Part shown: positions 23,495 to 35,886 of the stretch, in pieces
Numbering within the stretch: position 1 is the first letter of the stretch
Layout: each line of letters begins with the position of its first letter
DNA from: Phenylobacterium sp.
Lineage (GTDB): Bacteria > Pseudomonadota > Alphaproteobacteria > Caulobacterales > Caulobacteraceae
NCBI RefSeq assembly: GCF_004799395.1
Contig: NZ_SSMZ01000124.1
Location: 1 to 38,425 of the forward strand
Length of the DNA: 38,425 bases
Direction of reading: 5' to 3'
Position numbers and translations under genes: made by a program
The notes under the pieces: generated by a model
The model's input: the letters and a program-made list of their open reading frames with translations, nothing else
Databases searched by the model: none
Told to the model about the DNA's origin: nothing

Positions 23495-23630
23495 GGGCGG
23501 CCTGACGCGAAAATGCCTGGGGACGATTCCTGTGGAGCAGTCTTAGCGAACGCGGGCCGGATTGGGGATAGACCGCGTGCGCCGGCGGCTCGTCCGCCGG
23601 CGGGGCAAATCACCGGGATGGAATCGGCCC

Positions 23631-23646
23631 TAAACCTTCCATTAAC
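23631..23646 (+). promoter_or_regulatory. Near-consensus CtrA box
   Basis: TAAA-CCTTCCA-TTAAC differs by one base from TTAA-N7-TTAAC, the binding site of the cell-cycle regulator CtrA. It lies inside the putative origin, about 100 bases from the perfect box, where CtrA binding would block initiation in non-replicating cells. Confidence 0.55.
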
Positions 23647-23691
23647 CCACTGGGCGAGTCCCCGGTGGACGCCGCAGAGCTCGCGGACCGA

Positions 23692-23704
23692 CAAGGATTG
23701 GATA
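23692..23704 (-). promoter_or_regulatory. IHF-like site in the origin
   Basis: CAAGGATTGGATA matches the complement of WATCAANNNNTTR with one mismatch. It lies between the two CtrA boxes and overlaps a DnaA-like box. IHF bends the Caulobacter origin and competes with CtrA there, so the placement is sensible, but a one-mismatch short motif is weak evidence. Confidence 0.35.
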
Positions 23705-23738
23705 GCCACAGGCGCGCACCGCGCGGTCCCCCTAGAGG

Positions 23739-23754
23739 TTAACGATTCCTTAAG
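23739..23754 (-). promoter_or_regulatory. Perfect CtrA box with GATTC in its spacer
   Basis: The plus strand reads TTAA-CGATTCC-TTAAG. Read from the minus strand with the flanking base it is TTAA-GGAATCG-TTAAC, the full CtrA consensus. The seven-base spacer includes GATTC, a CcrM methylation site. The box sits centrally in the putative origin and could repress initiation or control nearby promoters. Confidence 0.8.
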
Positions 23755-24004
23755 CGTCCGCGGGGCTTGGCGGTCGGTCCCCGCAATTCACAGGCCTGTC
23801 CTCCCTGGAGGGCGCAGGCGGGACAAGCTGGGGACGGGGGTTGCGCCGTCATGAATGTGTCGCCGTTGTCCACGCACTCGACAGCCCCTATCGCTCCTAC
23901 ACCAACCTTTTTCAGAACCCTTATTAGGAAGAAGAGGGGCGGACGGGATGAGTGGATTCGGCGTTGGGCTTGAGCCGCAGGCCGGGAGGCGATTTAAAGC
24001 TCCC

Positions 24005-25057
24005 ATGAGCGAGACCACTCCGCGGCTCCTACGAGCCTTGGCCGGCGAAACCCTCGACCGGCCTCCAATCTGGCTCATGCGCCAGGCGGGCCGCTCGCTG
24101 CCGGAATACCGCGAGCTGCGCACCCGGGCTGCGGACTTCATCACATTCTGCCACAATCCGGAGATGGCCGCCGAGGCGACGCTGCAGCCCATGCGCCGCT
24201 TTCCACTGGATGCGGCCATCGTCTTCGCCGACATCCTGCTGATCCCTGGCGCGCTTGGCCAAAAGGTCTGGTTCGAAGCCGGTGAGGGCCCACGGCTTGG
24301 TGAGCTGCCGCTGGTCGAGGCCATGGCCGAGCAAGTCGAAGCTTCCACGGGACGGCTTTCGGCGATCGGCGAGACGCTGTCGCTCGTGCGCGCCGAACTT
24401 GAGCCAGACCGAGCGCTGATCGGCTTTGCAGGCGGCCCCTGGACGGTGGCTACCTACATGATCGAAGGTCGCAGCTCGAACCGCGAAGTGGCGCGAGCCT
24501 ATGCCTACGCTCACCCCGAAGAACTGGATGCTCTGCTGGCCGTACTGGTGGACGCCACAGCCCGCTATCTGGTCATGCAGGCCAAGTCCGGCGCCCAGGC
24601 GCTGAAGATCTTCGAGAGCTGGGCGGAAGGCCTGGCCGAGGACGTGTTCGAGCGCATCGTCATCGCTCCGCACCTGGCCATTGTCGAGAAGGTCCGCGCA
24701 GCCGGCGTGACCGTCCCGTTCATCGGCTTTCCCCGTGGGGCCGGAGCGCTGGTGGAGAACTACGCCCGCACCGTGCCCGTGCAGGGCGTCGCGCTCGACA
24801 CCCAGGCGAGCGCCGAACTGGGTCAGCGGCTGCAGGCAGGCGGCAAGACGATCCAGGGCGCGCTGGACAACCTGCTGCTGCGCGAAGGCGGCTCAGCCCT
24901 GGATGCTCGGGTGGACCAGCTGCTCGCCCAATGGAGCGGCGGTCCCTACATCTTCAACCTGGGCCACGGGGTGATGCCAGACACACCGATCGCCCACATC
25001 GCCCGCGTCGTGGAGCGGGTGACCGGAAAACCGGCTAAGGCCATGGCCGCCGAGTGA
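24005..25057 (+). CDS. hemE: Uroporphyrinogen decarboxylase
   Basis: The 350-residue enzyme decarboxylates uroporphyrinogen III to coproporphyrinogen III in heme synthesis. The substrate-binding motif RPPIWLMRQAGRSLPEYR is at residues 19-36, and FAGGPWTVATYMIEG and FNLGHGVMPDTP are further family signatures. Most homologues read RQAGRYLPEYR, so serine replaces tyrosine here. I start at ATG 24005 (MSETTPRLLRALAGE), as in homologues. ATG 23948 is in frame with a better purine-rich upstream and would extend into the origin. The gene is the right boundary of oriC and overlaps hemH by four bases. Confidence 0.96.
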   Translation: MSETTPRLLRALAGETLDRPPIWLMRQAGRSLPEYRELRTRAADFITFCHNPEMAAEATLQPMRRFPLDAAIVFADILLIPGALGQKVWFEAGEGPRLGELPLVEAMAEQVEASTGRLSAIGETLSLVRAELEPDRALIGFAGGPWTVATYMIEGRSSNREVARAYAYAHPEELDALLAVLVDATARYLVMQAKSGAQALKIFESWAEGLAEDVFERIVIAPHLAIVEKVRAAGVTVPFIGFPRGAGALVENYARTVPVQGVALDTQASAELGQRLQAGGKTIQGALDNLLLREGGSALDARVDQLLAQWSGGPYIFNLGHGVMPDTPIAHIARVVERVTGKPAKAMAAE

Positions 25058-26794: not shown

Positions 26795-28219
26795 ATGCAA
26801 GACGAAAACGAAACCCCCGCCTCCGACGAGACCCCGGTGAACGAGGCCGAAACCGCCGATCAGACCGCAGCTGAAGCGGCTGCAGAGGCCGAGGCCGAAG
26901 CCGCGGAGTCCGACGAGCCGTCCGAGGCGGCCCAGGCCATCGCGAAGCTCGGGCTCACCCGGATGAGTCTGCAGGAGTTGAAGGATAAGGCGCCCGCGGA
27001 CCTCTTGGCCTTCGCCGAGCTCTTCGAGATCGAGAACGTGAACTCCATGCGCAAGCAGGACATCATGTTTGCGATCCTCAAGGTGATGGCCGAGGAAGGC
27101 GTCGAAATCTCCGGCTCCGGCACCCTGGAAGTGGTGCAGGACGGCTTCGGCTTCCTGCGCAGCCCCGAGGCAAACTACCTGCCTGGGCCCGACGACATCT
27201 ATGTCAGCCCCTCGCAGATCCGGAAGTTCGGCCTGCGCACCGGCGACAGCGTGGACGGCGCCATCCGCGCGCCGCGCGAGGGCGAGCGCTACTTCGCCCT
27301 GGTGAAGGTCGATCTGACCAACTTCGAGAACCCCGAGAACGTCCGGCACAAGGTGCTGTTCGACAATCTGACACCGCTCTATCCCGACCAGCGGCTGAAG
27401 ATGGAGATCGACGACCCCACCCTGAAGGACCGCTCTGGCCGGGTGATCGATATCGTCGCCCCGCTCGGCAAGGGCCAGCGCTGCCTGATCACTGCGCCGC
27501 CCCGCGTCGGCAAGACAGTGATGTTGCAGAACATCGCCAAGTCCATCGAGATCAACCACCCCGAGTGCTACCTGATCGTCCTTTTGATCGACGAGCGCCC
27601 GGAAGAAGTCACCGACATGCAGCGCACGGTGAAGGGCGAGGTGATCTCCTCGACCTTCGACGAGCCGGCGACGCGTCACGTCCAAGTGGCTGAAATGGTT
27701 ATCGAAAAAGCCAAGCGCCTGGTCGAGCACAAGCGCGACGTGGTGATCCTTCTGGACAGCGTCACCAGGCTTGGCCGCGCGTACAACACCGTGGTGCCGT
27801 CGTCCGGCAAGGTGCTGACGGGCGGCGTCGACGCCAATGCCCTGCAGCGCCCCAAGCGTTTCTTCGGCGCGGCGCGGAACATCGAGGAAGGCGGCTCCCT
27901 GACCATCATCGCCACGGCTCTGATCGACACCGGCAGCCGGATGGACGAGGTGATCTTCGAAGAATTCAAGGGCACCGGTAACTCGGAAATCGTCCTCGAC
28001 CGTAAGGTCGCCGACAAGCGGGTCTATCCGGCGATCGACGTGATCAAGTCCGGCACCCGCAAGGAGGAGCTGATCACGCCGAAGGAGCACCTGACCAAAA
28101 CCTACATCCTTCGCCGGATCCTGGGCCCGATGGGCGCTCAGGACGCCATCGAGTTCCTGCTCGACAAGCTCCGCTCGTCCAAGACCAACGAAGAGTTCTT
28201 CCAGTCGATGAACACGTAG
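26795..28219 (+). CDS. rho: Transcription termination factor Rho
   Basis: The 474-residue hexameric RNA helicase ends transcription. An acidic, alanine/glutamate-rich N-terminal extension (about residues 1-48) precedes the Rho N-terminal domain ([19 protein letters not shown]). The RNA-binding cold-shock fold with [23 protein letters not shown] and the ATPase core follow. The Walker A loop is APPRVGKT at 234-241, where E. coli has PPKAGKT; Walker B is [11 protein letters not shown]. The C-terminal motifs [17 protein letters not shown] and [15 protein letters not shown] are intact. It follows hemJ after a structured leader and is followed by parS and a terminator. Confidence 0.97.
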
Positions 28220-28257
28220 GGCTTGCGGCCTTACCAAGGGCCTACTCGTTCTACTTG

Positions 28258-28273
28258 TGTTTCACGTGAAACA
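28258..28273. promoter_or_regulatory. parS: parS centromere site 1 (perfect 16-bp palindrome)
   Basis: TGTTTCACGTGAAACA is a perfect match to the bacterial parS consensus bound by ParB. It lies between the rho stop and the terminator hairpin, about 4.3 kb right of the origin. The cognate parA-parB genes are 6-8 kb away. Confidence 0.95.
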
Positions 28274-28277
28274 TCAG

Positions 28278-28305
28278 ACGCCGCCCCTTTCCGGAGGGGC
28301 GGCGT
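28278..28305. terminator. Bidirectional terminator between rho and the quinone reductase gene
   Basis: An 11-bp perfect stem (ACGCCGCCCCT / AGGGGCGGCGT) with a six-base loop is followed by TTT on the plus strand. It lies between two convergent genes and eight bases before the reductase stop codon, so it fits rho termination and possibly the opposite gene. Confidence 0.8.
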
Positions 28306-28312
28306 TTCGCTG

Positions 28313-29287
28313 TCAGGGGATCAACAGACTCGCGCCGATCGTAGCCCGGCTTTCCAGGGCTTCGTGCGCCTTGCGGGCGTCGGCCAGCGGGTACGTCTGG
28401 CCGATCTCGACCTCCACCTTGCCGGAGCCGATCATCTCGAACAGGGCCGCGGCGCTGGCGTCGAGCTCGGCGGTGGTGGTCTGGTAATCGCCCATGGTCG
28501 GCCGTGTGAAGAACAACGAACCGCCGAGCATCAGCTGGCGGGCCTCCACGGGTGGCGGCGGGCCGGACGCATTGCCGAAGCTGACAAACAGGCCGCGGCG
28601 CGCCAGGCTTTTCAAGGTGCCTTCGAAGGTGTCCTTGCCCACCGAGTCGTAGGCCACAGGCACGCCCTTCCCGCCGGTGATCCGGCGGACCTCGGCCGCC
28701 ACATCCTGGGCGCGGTAAAGGATCACATGGTCGGCCCCCAGCTCACGCACGCGCGCAGCCTTTTTCTCGGAGCCCACGGTGGCGATCACCACCGCGCCCA
28801 GAGCCTTGGCCCACTGGGTCATGATCTGGCCGACGCCGCCGGCGGCCGCATGGACCAGAAGGGTCTCCCCGGCCTCCACGCGGTGCAGGCGCCGGAGCAG
28901 GAACTCCACTGTCATGCCCTTCAGCAGCGCCGCCGCGGCGGTGCGGACATCGATGTCGTCCGGCAAGGCGACCGCGCGGTCGGCCAGAGCCACCGAATAC
29001 TCCGCATAGGCCCCCGGCGAGCTGGAGCCGGCGGTCGCCACCCGGTCGCCGACCTTGAAGCGTGTGACCTCCTCGCCCACGGCCTCGACGACGCCCGCGG
29101 CCTCGCCGCCCAGGCCCGAGGGCAGCTTCATCGGGTAGAGGCCGGATCGCTGGTAGGTCTCGATGAAGTTCACGCCGATCGCCTCGTGGCGGATCAGCAC
29201 CTGCTTCGGTCCCGGTGAGGGGGTCTCGACCTCGACATATTGCAAGACTTCCGGGCCGCCGGTGGTCTCGAGCCGGATCGCGCGCAT
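28313..29287 (-). CDS. NADPH:quinone oxidoreductase (zeta-crystallin type)
   Basis: The 324-residue medium-chain reductase reduces quinones with NADPH. The N-terminal MRAIRLETTGGPEVLQYVEV and GVNFIETYQRSGLYP are typical of QOR/zeta-crystallin, and the nucleotide site LLVHAAAGGVGQIMTQWAKALGA is near residues 142-164. There are no zinc-binding cysteines in the usual places, as expected for this branch. The track ORF extends further upstream into the hydrolase frame. The ATG overlaps the hydrolase stop by one base (TGATG), so the two are co-translated. Confidence 0.9.
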   Translation of the reverse strand: MRAIRLETTGGPEVLQYVEVETPSPGPKQVLIRHEAIGVNFIETYQRSGLYPMKLPSGLGGEAAGVVEAVGEEVTRFKVGDRVATAGSSSPGAYAEYSVALADRAVALPDDIDVRTAAAALLKGMTVEFLLRRLHRVEAGETLLVHAAAGGVGQIMTQWAKALGAVVIATVGSEKKAARVRELGADHVILYRAQDVAAEVRRITGGKGVPVAYDSVGKDTFEGTLKSLARRGLFVSFGNASGPPPPVEARQLMLGGSLFFTRPTMGDYQTTTAELDASAAALFEMIGSGKVEVEIGQTYPLADARKAHEALESRATIGASLLIP

Positions 29288-31670: not shown

Positions 31671-31686
31671 TGTTTCACGTGAAACA
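31671..31686. promoter_or_regulatory. parS: parS centromere site 2 (perfect 16-bp palindrome)
   Basis: TGTTTCACGTGAAACA again matches the ParB-binding consensus perfectly. It ends about 30 bases before the mnmG start codon, about 7.7 kb from the origin and 2.5 kb from parA. In the mnmG frame it reads VSRET, which explains the extended track ORF. Confidence 0.95.
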
Positions 31687-31716
31687 CTCGCGGCGTTCGA
31701 CTATATGCAGCGCTCC

Positions 31717-33567
31717 ATGACGACCTGGGACGTGATCATCATCGGCGGCGGCCATGCCGGCTGCGAGGCGGCGGCCGCCTCGGCGCGGTTCGGCGCGCGC
31801 ACCCTGCTGCTTACCCACAAGGTCGAGACCATCGGAGAGATGAGCTGCAACCCGGCCATTGGCGGCCTGGGCAAGGGTCATCTGGTCCGCGAGATCGACG
31901 CCCTGGACGGGCTGATGGGCCGGCTCGGCGATCAGGCCGGCATTCAGTTCCGGCTGCTGAACCGCTCCAAGGGCGCCGCCGTGCGCGGCCCGCGCTCACA
32001 GATAGACCGCAAACTCTACCGCGAGGCCATGCAGGCGGAACTCGCCGCCACACCCAACCTGACCCTCGTCGCCGAGGCGGTCGAGGACCTGATCCTGGAC
32101 GACCGCGTCGTCGTGGGTGTGCTGGGCGCCAGCGGGACGGCCTACCGCGGCGGCCGGGTCGTGCTGACCACCGGCACCTTCCTGAAGGGTGTGATCCATC
32201 GCGGCGATGAGCGGATTCCAGCCGGTCGCGCCGGCGATGCGCCGGCGATCGGTCTCTCGGACCGGCTCTATGCTTCTGGGCTCCGAATGGGCCGACTCAA
32301 GACCGGCACCCCGGCCCGTCTCGACGGCTCGACCATCGCCTGGGACCGGCTGGAGATGCAGGCGGCGGACGAAGAGCCCACCCCGTTCTCCTTCCTGACC
32401 GAGGCGATCACCACGCCGCAGATCGCCTGCGGGATCACCTACACCAACGCCAAGACTCATCGGATCATCGCCGAGCGCCTCGGCGAGAGCGCGGTCTATG
32501 GCGGCAAGGCTACCGGGATCGGCCCACGCTACTGCCCGTCGATCGAGGACAAGGTGGTCCGTTTCGCCGACAAGACCAGTCACCAGGTGTTCCTGGAGCC
32601 GGAAGGCCTCTCCGACGACACGGTCTATCCGAACGGCGTCTCCACCTCGGTGTCGGAAGAGACGCAGGACCTCTTCCTACGGACCATGGTTGGGCTCGAA
32701 GACGTGCGCGTGCGCCGCTACGGCTACGCCATCGAGTACGACTATGTGGACCCTCGCGAACTCTTCCCGACCCTGGAGGCCAAGCGCCTGCCCGGTCTTT
32801 ACCTGGCGGGTCAGATCAACGGCACCACCGGCTATGAAGAAGCCGGCGCCCAGGGTCTGGTCGCCGGGCTGAACGCCGCGCGCGCGGCGTCCGGGCTGGA
32901 CGCCGGCTCCTTCGCCCGCGACGAGGCCTATATCGGCGTGCTGATTGATGACCTGGTCACCCGTGGCGTCACCGAGCCCTATCGGATGTTCACCAGCCGC
33001 GCGGAATTCCGCCTGCTCCTGCGGGCCGACAACGCCGACCAGCGGCTGACCGCCAAGGGCCACGCCCTGGGCGTCGTGGGGTCTCTCCGCGCCAAGGTGT
33101 TTGGTGAGAAGGCCGAGGCGCTCAGTGAAGCCCGCGCCATGGCCGCCAGCCTGACGCTGACGCCCTCGGCGGCCGAAAAGGCCGGCCTGCCTGTGAAGGC
33201 GGACGGTCAACGGCGCAACCTCATCGAGCTCCTCGCCTACCCGACCATCGGCTTCGACGACCTGGCGCGCGTATGGCCGCAGATCGCTGCCTGGGCGCCG
33301 GCGGTGCGCGAGCAGGTGGAGATCGACGCCTCCTACGCCGGCTACCTCGACCGCCAAGCCGCCGATGTCGCCGCGTTCCGCCGCGACGAGGACCTGACCC
33401 TGTCCGCAGATCTGGACTACACAATGGTCGGCGGCCTCTCCAACGAGGCGCGAGAAAAGCTGAATAATGTCAAACCGTTGACACTGGGACAGGCGGCGCG
33501 GATCGAGGGCGTGACACCTGGCGCGCTGACCGCCCTGCTGGCTCATGTCCGTCGCCGCGCCGCGTGA
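31717..33567 (+). CDS. mnmG: tRNA uridine-5-carboxymethylaminomethyl modification enzyme MnmG (GidA)
   Basis: The 616-residue FAD enzyme partners with MnmE. The FAD motif [21 protein letters not shown] starts at residue 6. [34 protein letters not shown] and [17 protein letters not shown] are classic GidA segments. I start at ATG 31717 ([12 protein letters not shown]); ATG 31705 is four codons earlier, and the track ORF extends through parS. No clear Shine-Dalgarno precedes either ATG, so leaderless or weak initiation is possible. The stop lies inside the rsmG start region (23-base overlap). Confidence 0.96.
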
Positions 33568-34210
33568 GCCCTTGGCGCCCGCAGCCCTGATGGACGCCGA
33601 AGGCTTCGCGTCCGTCAGCGGGGCCACGCCCGCCCAGATGGCTGACCTCGAACGCTTCCGGGTGATGCTCGCCGAGCGCAACGAGGTGATGAACCTCGTC
33701 GGGCCGGCCTCCCTCCCCGACTTCTGGTCGCGGCACGCCTGGGACTCGGCTCAATTGCTGCGTCTGGCGCCGGAGGCGCGGGCCTGGGCCGACCTGGGCG
33801 CCGGCGCCGGTCTGCCCGGTCTGGTGCTGGCCATACTCGGCAAGGGGGTCGTGGGCTTCCACGTGGACCTCGTGGAGAGCATGACCAAGCGGTGCAAGTT
33901 CCTCTCCGAAGTGGTGGAAGAGCTGGCGATTCCGGCGAGCGTCCACAACGCGCGTGCGGAAAACCTCGATCTAACTGTGGAGATCGTCACCGCCCGGGCT
34001 TGTGCGCCGCTCTACCGCCTGCTCGGGTATGCCCGGCCATACCTGCAGTCCGGCGCGACCGGCCTGTTCCTCAAGGGACAGGACGTCGTGGCCGAGATGA
34101 AGGAGGCCGCCAGACATTGGGAATATGAGGCCGACGTCGTGCCATCCAAAAGCGACCCCCGAGGCCGCATCGTTCGCGTGAGGAGGCTCGGTCGTGCCCG
34201 CAAGACCTGA
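33545..34210 (+). CDS. rsmG: 16S rRNA (guanine527-N7)-methyltransferase RsmG (GidB)
   Basis: The up-to-221-residue protein methylates N7 of G527 in 16S rRNA. The RsmG core has [24 protein letters not shown], the SAM loop [35 protein letters not shown], and the HNARAEN and VTARACAPL segments. Start 33545 overlaps mnmG by 23 bases. ATG 33590 would give a shorter 206-residue form close to homologues, and neither has a strong ribosome site. The 3' end overlaps parA by 17 bases and encodes parA's ribosome site. Confidence 0.94.
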
Positions 34211-35006
34211 AGCGGCCATGCGGGTGCTCGTCGTCGCCAACCAGAAGGGCGGCGTTGGCAAGACCACGACCGCCATCAACCTGGGCACGGCCCTGGCTGC
34301 GGTGGGAGAACGCGTGCTGCTGATCGACTCGGATCCGCAGGGGAACGCCTCCACCGGCCTCGGCATCGGCCGGGCGCAGCGCAAGAACACGCTCTACGAC
34401 GTCTTGATGGGCGAAAAGGGCCTGTCCGAGGCGGTGGTGAAGTCCTCGGTGCCGGGCCTGGACGTGGTGCCGTCGGACCCAGACCTCTCGGGCATCGAAT
34501 TGGAATTGGCCCAGCAGGCCCGGCGTTCCTACAAGCTGCGCGACGCGCTGGACGTCGTGCGCGAGGCTGGGGTCTACAGCTACGTGCTGATCGACTGCCC
34601 GCCGTCGCTGAATCTGCTCACCGTCAACGCCATGGCGGCGGCCGACGCGGTGCTGGTGCCCTTACAGTGCGAGTTCTTCGCCCTGGAGGGCCTGACCCAG
34701 CTGATGCGCACCATCGAGCTGGTGCACACCAGCCTCAATCCCAAGCTGGAGATCCAGGGGATCGTGCTGACCATGTTCGATCGCCGAAACGGCCTGTCGG
34801 CCCAGGTGGCCAACGACGTGCGCGACCACTTCGGCGAGACGGTCTACCAGACGGTGATCCCGCGAAATGTGCGGGTTTCCGAGGCGCCTTCGTTCGGCAA
34901 GCCGGCGCTGGTCTACGATCTGAAGTGCGCAGGCAGCCAGGCGTATCTGCGGCTGGCCCGCGAGGTGGTGCTGCGCGAGCGCGCCCGCCGCAAAGTCGCG
35001 GCGTAG
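34194..35006 (+). CDS. parA: Chromosome partitioning ATPase ParA
   Basis: The 270-residue deviant Walker ATPase drives segregation of the ParB-parS complex. The P-loop NQKGGVGKTTTAINLG begins at residue 16 with the deviant lysine. Walker A' is LLIDSDPQGNAST, and YVLIDCPPSLNLLT, PLQCEFFALEGL and IPRNVRVSEAPSFGKP are chromosomal ParA signatures. The GTG start at 34194 is chosen because AGGAGG ends seven bases upstream; ATG 34218 lacks one. The gene overlaps rsmG and precedes parB by ten bases. Confidence 0.97.
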   Translation: MPARPEAAMRVLVVANQKGGVGKTTTAINLGTALAAVGERVLLIDSDPQGNASTGLGIGRAQRKNTLYDVLMGEKGLSEAVVKSSVPGLDVVPSDPDLSGIELELAQQARRSYKLRDALDVVREAGVYSYVLIDCPPSLNLLTVNAMAAADAVLVPLQCEFFALEGLTQLMRTIELVHTSLNPKLEIQGIVLTMFDRRNGLSAQVANDVRDHFGETVYQTVIPRNVRVSEAPSFGKPALVYDLKCAGSQAYLRLAREVVLRERARRKVAA

Positions 35007-35016
35007 GAGAGATTCG

Positions 35017-35886
35017 ATGGCCGAGGGCCGCAGAGGTTTGGGCCGGGGCCTTTCGGCCCTGCTGGACGACGCGAACGACGGTGATGGGCCCGTCGCCGCC
35101 GGCGAAGGCGCTCGCGAGATCCCCATCGAACTGGTCCACCGCAACCCCGACCAGCCGCGCCGCCACTTCGCCGAGGCCGAGATCGCCGAGCTGGAGACCT
35201 CGATCCGCGACAAGGGCGTGTTGCAGCCGATCCTGGTCCGTCCCTCGCCCAAGACGTCGGGTGAATTCGAGATTGTGGCCGGTGAGCGCCGCTGGCGCGC
35301 GGCGCAGCAGGCTGGGCTGAAGGCGATCCCGGCGCTGGTGCGGGTGCTGGACGACGACAAGGCCTTCGAGATCGCCATCGTCGAGAACGTCCAGCGCGAA
35401 GACCTGAACGCCATGGAGGAGGCCCAGGCCTACCAGACCCTGATGCGGCGCATGGCCTACACCCAGGACAAGGCGGCCTCTGCGGTCGGCAAGTCGCGCA
35501 GCCATGTGGCCAACACCCTTCGCCTGTTGCAGCTGCCGGCGATCGTCCAGGACCACGTGCTGTTCGGCCGCCTGACCGCCGGCCATGCGCGCGCGATCCT
35601 GACCTCGGATCAGCCGGAGGCCTTGGCGCAAGCCATTGTCGAGAAAGGGCTTTCCGTCCGTGACGCGGAGGCGCTGGCCAAACGCAAGGGCGGGTCCGGT
35701 CCGGCCAAGGCCTCAGGCCCGCGCCGGAGCAAGGACACCGACACCGCAGCACTTGAGGTCGACCTGGAGGACGTGCTGGGCATGAGCGTCGACATCCTCG
35801 ACCGGGGCGGCGCGGGCGAACTGCGCATCAAGTACGCCACCCTGGAACAGCTCGACGAGCTTTGCCGCAGGCTGACCCGCGCATGA
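35017..35886 (+). CDS. parB: Chromosome partitioning protein ParB
   Basis: The 289-residue CTPase binds parS and slides along DNA. The N-terminal GLGRGLSALL (residues 7-16) is the ParA-contact motif. NPDQPRRHF (43-51), ENVQREDLNAMEEA and GERRWRAAQ (89-97) form the CTP-binding domain. A helix-turn-helix follows (DKAASAVGKSRSHVANTLRLL), then a linker and a C-terminal dimerisation domain (AGELRIKYATLEQLDELCRRL). GGAGAG precedes the ATG. The stop overlaps the next ATG by four bases. It should bind the two parS sites described here. Confidence 0.97.
   Translation: MAEGRRGLGRGLSALLDDANDGDGPVAAGEGAREIPIELVHRNPDQPRRHFAEAEIAELETSIRDKGVLQPILVRPSPKTSGEFEIVAGERRWRAAQQAGLKAIPALVRVLDDDKAFEIAIVENVQREDLNAMEEAQAYQTLMRRMAYTQDKAASAVGKSRSHVANTLRLLQLPAIVQDHVLFGRLTAGHARAILTSDQPEALAQAIVEKGLSVRDAEALAKRKGGSGPAKASGPRRSKDTDTAALEVDLEDVLGMSVDILDRGGAGELRIKYATLEQLDELCRRLTRA

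Follow-up and report, generated by a model that had tools for sequence, protein, structure and literature searches.

A parS site beside a separate hairpin downstream of rho in Phenylobacterium, and its apparent use as the upper stem of a terminator hairpin in relatives with short rho-qor junctions

The ParABS system of Caulobacter crescentus (PMC5815017) resembles the Phenylobacterium locus studied here in having the same 16-bp parS consensus, parAB near the origin, clustered sites and a homologous ParB, but Caulobacter carries at least five parS sites in a tight cluster whereas the Phenylobacterium genome has two, 3.4 kb apart, one of which follows rho. Intrinsic (Rho-independent) terminators offer a second comparison, as here too a G+C-rich stem closes two convergent genes, joined in one alphaproteobacterial family (f37, below) by T-tracts that are often found on both strands; unlike in ordinary terminators, the upper stem and loop of the embedded form described below are a fixed centromere word, and the lower stem alone varies. 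Neisseria and Haemophilus likewise put a DNA-recognition word to use in terminator stems, in the form of inverted DNA uptake signal sequences, although that stem is built from two inverted copies of a repeated word and the one considered here from a single self-palindromic centromere site.

The window, meaning the whole stretch of 38,425 nucleotides that was analysed, contains a perfect parS palindrome, TGTTTCACGTGAAACA, at 28258–28273 (0 mismatches to the 16-bp consensus). It lies between rho, encoding the transcription termination factor (26795–28219, plus strand; TIGR00767, 683.8 bits), and the convergent gene qor, encoding an NADPH:quinone reductase (28313–29287, minus strand; NF008024, 372.7 bits). 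The preliminary description had placed this palindrome 38 bases 3′ of the rho stop and directly before a strong hairpin, and both statements hold, with the stop codon TAG at 28217–28219 and a gap of 4 bases to a hairpin at 28278–28305. A second perfect parS was matched between mnmE and mnmG at 31671–31686, where shuffles expect 0.04 matches even when 3 mismatches are tolerated. These two sites (to which, as to the hairpin and the origin interval below, no strand is assigned) are the only ones with two or fewer mismatches in the whole 4.44 Mb assembly. Read from the origin side, the window carries a kinase/PPPase gene (minus strand), the probable origin, hemE, hemH, one more ORF, rho, parS and the hairpin, followed by qor (minus), a dienelactone hydrolase gene (minus), mnmE, the second parS, mnmG, rsmG, parA (34194–35006, plus strand; AAA_31, 216.5 bits) and parB (35017–35886, plus strand). 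The product of the last has ParB_N, HTH_ParB and ParB_C domains and retains R173 and G201 (Caulobacter numbering), residues that mark specificity for parS and not for Noc sites.

The site after rho is 5.9 kb from parA and about 4.5 kb from the interval at 23495–24007, between the kinase/PPPase gene (minus) and hemE (plus), which we take to be the origin from the Caulobacter gene order around hemE. This interval holds the only CtrA-like TTAAN7TTAA site in the window (at 23739; shuffles expect 0.01), and a perfect DnaA box, TTATCCACA, was not found in it; we regard it as the probable chromosome origin. Judging from the sequence, 28258–28273 is predicted to be a genuine, ParB-loading parS of the origin-proximal centromere, and in this respect the rho-qor parS would be an ordinary centromere site. 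At the mnmG-side site, a conserved TTCGACTATATGC is found about 15 bases past parS and directly ahead of the mnmG start (31671–31717), and this parS may overlap the promoter of mnmG-rsmG-parA-parB.

The hairpin that follows the first parS (ACGCCGCCCC..GGGGCGGCGT, 28278–28305) is stable, G+C-rich and close behind rho. When the 57-nt stretch holding both elements was folded, two distinct hairpins were obtained (−32.8 kcal/mol, z = −6.2), which rules out a single long stem made of parS and the hairpin together. The flanks of the window parS scored 1.0 for arms with no run of pairs, placing this parS outside any armed stem. On the rho side the tail of the hairpin is TTTCG only, so that a strong hairpin is combined with a weak U-tract, and the terminator scan called the hairpin on the minus strand and not on the plus strand. 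We consider that it probably ends both the rho and the opposing qor transcripts. A search of Rfam with the window and ten relatives gave no match.

It had also been proposed that ParB spreading from this site would cover rho. This is a reasonable prediction, given that the 1.4-kb rho gene stops 38 bases short of the site and that ParB keeps its parS-type residues. Caulobacter ParB spread at most ~2 kb around a single parS when measured in E. coli, and it occupies ~10 kb at its native parS cluster (PMC5815017). The preliminary description went on to suggest an influence on rho 3′ ends, which could mean that ParB bound at, or spreading from, the window parS shifts the ends of rho transcripts, for example as a roadblock ahead of the hairpin. 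RNA polymerase leaving rho does cross parS before it reaches the hairpin, and spreading over ~2 kb is known for Caulobacter ParB; however, in relatives with the terminator first, such as L157 and L164, parS lies past the rho terminator. Since the order of parS and terminator varies in this way, no conserved geometry backs an effect of ParB on rho 3′ ends here, and we find such an effect distinctly unlikely. With parS and hairpin merely adjacent in the window, an influence of ParB on rho 3′ ends stays only a possibility, and nothing in the window requires it. A broader version, in which the rho-3′ parS is a point of coupling between centromere and terminator, would have ParB occupancy and termination on one word affect each other, so that segregation state tunes the rho 3′ end or transcription tunes ParB loading. 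This would be most direct where parS is itself the hairpin stem, and we think it unlikely.

To place the window among its relatives, we compared rho 3′ regions from Phenylobacterium and other Caulobacteraceae, allowing two or fewer mismatches to parS and using only complete intervals from rho to qor or dlh. In 71 of the 79 Phenylobacterium genomes, the interval from rho to the convergent qor or dlh contained at least one parS, and in 44 a perfect one. Genomes of the Asticcacaulis and Brevundimonas types also frequently have a parS after rho; in g21, a large genus of Caulobacteraceae, it is mostly absent. The rho-qor junction was observed in several forms: a terminator followed by parS; parS followed by a hairpin, as in the window and the closely related L143 and L145; and parS within the sole hairpin found, which is the form of short junctions. 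The junction is variable, and the window shows one of its states. In the Asticcacaulis- and Brevundimonas-type genomes, where a codirectional mnmE comes next after rho, arms around the rho-3′ parS were found in 0 of 11 cases.

This variability bears on one account of the locus, namely that parS sits beside the rho terminator only as a result of the gene order rho-mnmE-mnmG-rsmG-parA-parB, and that the two elements are unrelated. The elements are distinct in the window, their order and spacing vary among relatives, and the parS between mnmE and mnmG is found widely among Alphaproteobacteria, far more so than the one after rho, all of which fits such an account. It does not explain why, in Phenylobacterium as well as in f37, parS at the rho-qor junction is embedded between covarying arms and the other parS sites of the same genomes are not. 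We give this account a substantial chance, though one somewhat short of even.

The embedded form was examined in all 17 Phenylobacterium rho-qor intervals of 78 bp or less, which were taken irrespective of arms. Arms flank parS in 16 of them, and the exception, L268, has a degenerate parS. Arms such as GCGGCC-parS-GGCCGC (L165), AGGGG-parS-CCCCTTTT (L250), ACCCG-parS-CGGGT (L279) and CTACCGGG-parS-CTCGGTAG (L274, where one arm pair is G-U) differ in sequence and keep their pairing. Counting closely related genomes that are not independent cases, 90 of 102 arm cells were paired at the short-interval parS versus 45 of 120 at the other parS sites of the same genomes, a control that rules out palindromic arms arising by chance, and when whole arms were shuffled among sequences none of 20000 trials reached 90 paired cells. 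Across the 16 armed Phenylobacterium sequences and L223, from another genus of Caulobacteraceae, 24 two-sided changes were seen in the arms versus 7.8 in shuffles, and none in the parS core. These rows were selected for having arms, and the pairing count over the 17 unselected intervals is therefore the cleaner test. On the rho-gene tree the embedded label changes six times (gains and losses pooled), with at least three changes forced by well-supported branches.

Four or more T in the 8 positions past the stem occur in only 3 of the 17 short Phenylobacterium cases, and most are without a clear U-tract. L289, which is among the clearest embedded cases, escapes the strict terminator scan, probably because its A-U pairs are counted as stem and consume the T-tract, and the T-tail was instead measured as the T count after the last G-C arm pair. 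The embedded hairpin of Phenylobacterium may terminate alone, work with Rho or shield the RNA 3′ end.

A scan of other Alphaproteobacteria gave AAAAAGGCGC-parS-GCGCCTTTT in G294, likewise in the interval that separates rho from a convergent qor. G294 belongs to the family f37, whose Rho is nearest to those of Thalassobaculum and other Rhodospirillales. A parS within 170 bases past rho was present in 8 of the 30 f37 rho loci fetched and was embedded in all eight; with a ninth case, found by a subsequent pattern search in which G/C flanks and a T tail were required, the sampled rho-3′ parS of f37 lies inside a terminator-like hairpin in 9 of 9. In the alignment of the eight, 98% of arm cells are paired, and 13 two-sided changes were counted versus 3.5 in shuffles. 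Eight of the nine have a T-rich tail (at least 4 T of 8) on the rho side, and such tails are often present on both strands; the approximately 40 other parS sites of f37 are without arms, bar one with weak arms. Because the eight embedded cases form one clade (support 99/95), embedding in f37 is probably old and has been maintained through changes of the arms.

It could be argued that the arms serve ParB rather than RNA, a longer DNA palindrome binding or loading ParB better. The repeats are indeed also palindromes as DNA, and many Phenylobacterium cases have only a weak U-tract, but the arm sequence varies freely while pairing is retained, the other parS sites of the same genomes have no arms, one arm pair, in L274, is G-U, and in f37 A/T tracts stand beside the arms. 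On this evidence we judge a role of the arms in ParB binding very unlikely.

The explanation that we favour, and hold to be quite probable, is that the window parS is a genuine one beside a separate hairpin and that in short junctions parS is the upper stem of the terminator hairpin. Any palindrome can fold as RNA. As double-stranded DNA the parS word, which is palindromic because ParB binds as a dimer, would load ParB; as RNA it would form the stem UGUUUC/GAAACA with the loop ACGU, and this fold together with the arms and often a U-tract would make an intrinsic terminator. With a long rho-qor interval, parS and terminator are neighbours. With an interval of 78 bp or less, the palindrome is almost always the upper stem of the sole hairpin, with G+C arms on both sides, and selection on convergent genes with little room seems to have reused parS in this way by adding the arms. 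Where parS itself is the stem, a single sequence underlies both DNA binding and RNA folding, and it seems that in relatives with short junctions one 16-base word has two readings, one at the DNA and one at the RNA level. A core fixed as parS and arms in which only the pairing is kept amount to two constraints on one word. The arm covariation, like the conservation and position of the sites, was observed directly in the sequences, whereas binding by ParB, termination and a possible influence of either on the other are inferred.

A centromere word that doubles as a terminator stem would bring two machines, ParB clamps and RNA polymerase, together on one 16-base stretch near the origin, and an embedded parS would be a simple test case for interference between ParB loading and transcription. 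It would also mean that altered flanks alone can give a self-palindromic protein site a second role as an RNA element, and, as a caution, that parS mutations at such sites may alter termination. A literature search at the level of titles, abstracts and term counts, outside subscription papers, found no report linking chromosomal parS to terminators, which is weak evidence of novelty, and at that level no paper on Phenylobacterium parS.

Several further observations were made around these sites. In L152, L169, L257, L253, L145 and L151, a conserved GCCATACCGGTNTTACGA precedes the rho-3′ parS by a few bases; no exact copy was found elsewhere in the searched genomes, and 28238–28257 of the window is a diverged version. 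In L155, L159, L169, L249, L254 and others, a conserved AAATnGGCTCTGTCGCGAAATTAG is followed by a matching CGCGACAG 75–200 bases past the rho stop, and some relatives carry CTGTGGCG/CGCCACAG in the same place, with pairing judged by eye only. The stretch, located between rho and parS, may be a structured RNA; an Rfam search with it gave no match.

In L378, a parS with one mismatch overlaps the rho stop codon and an ordinary terminator follows; this is a separate form and was left out of the counts. Combinations of parS and terminator are also scattered in other Pseudomonadota, next to genes for an ABC transporter, for an inositol monophosphatase and a TetR regulator, and for an amidohydrolase and a methyladenine glycosylase. 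In three species of the family f197 (L296, L297 and L298), parS lies in a terminator-like hairpin 3′ of the ABC transporter gene, with differing arms and T-tracts, and in L308 (G765) AAAAAGCCATG-parS-CATGGCTTTTT forms a perfect 38-base palindrome between the inositol monophosphatase gene and the convergent TetR-family gene.
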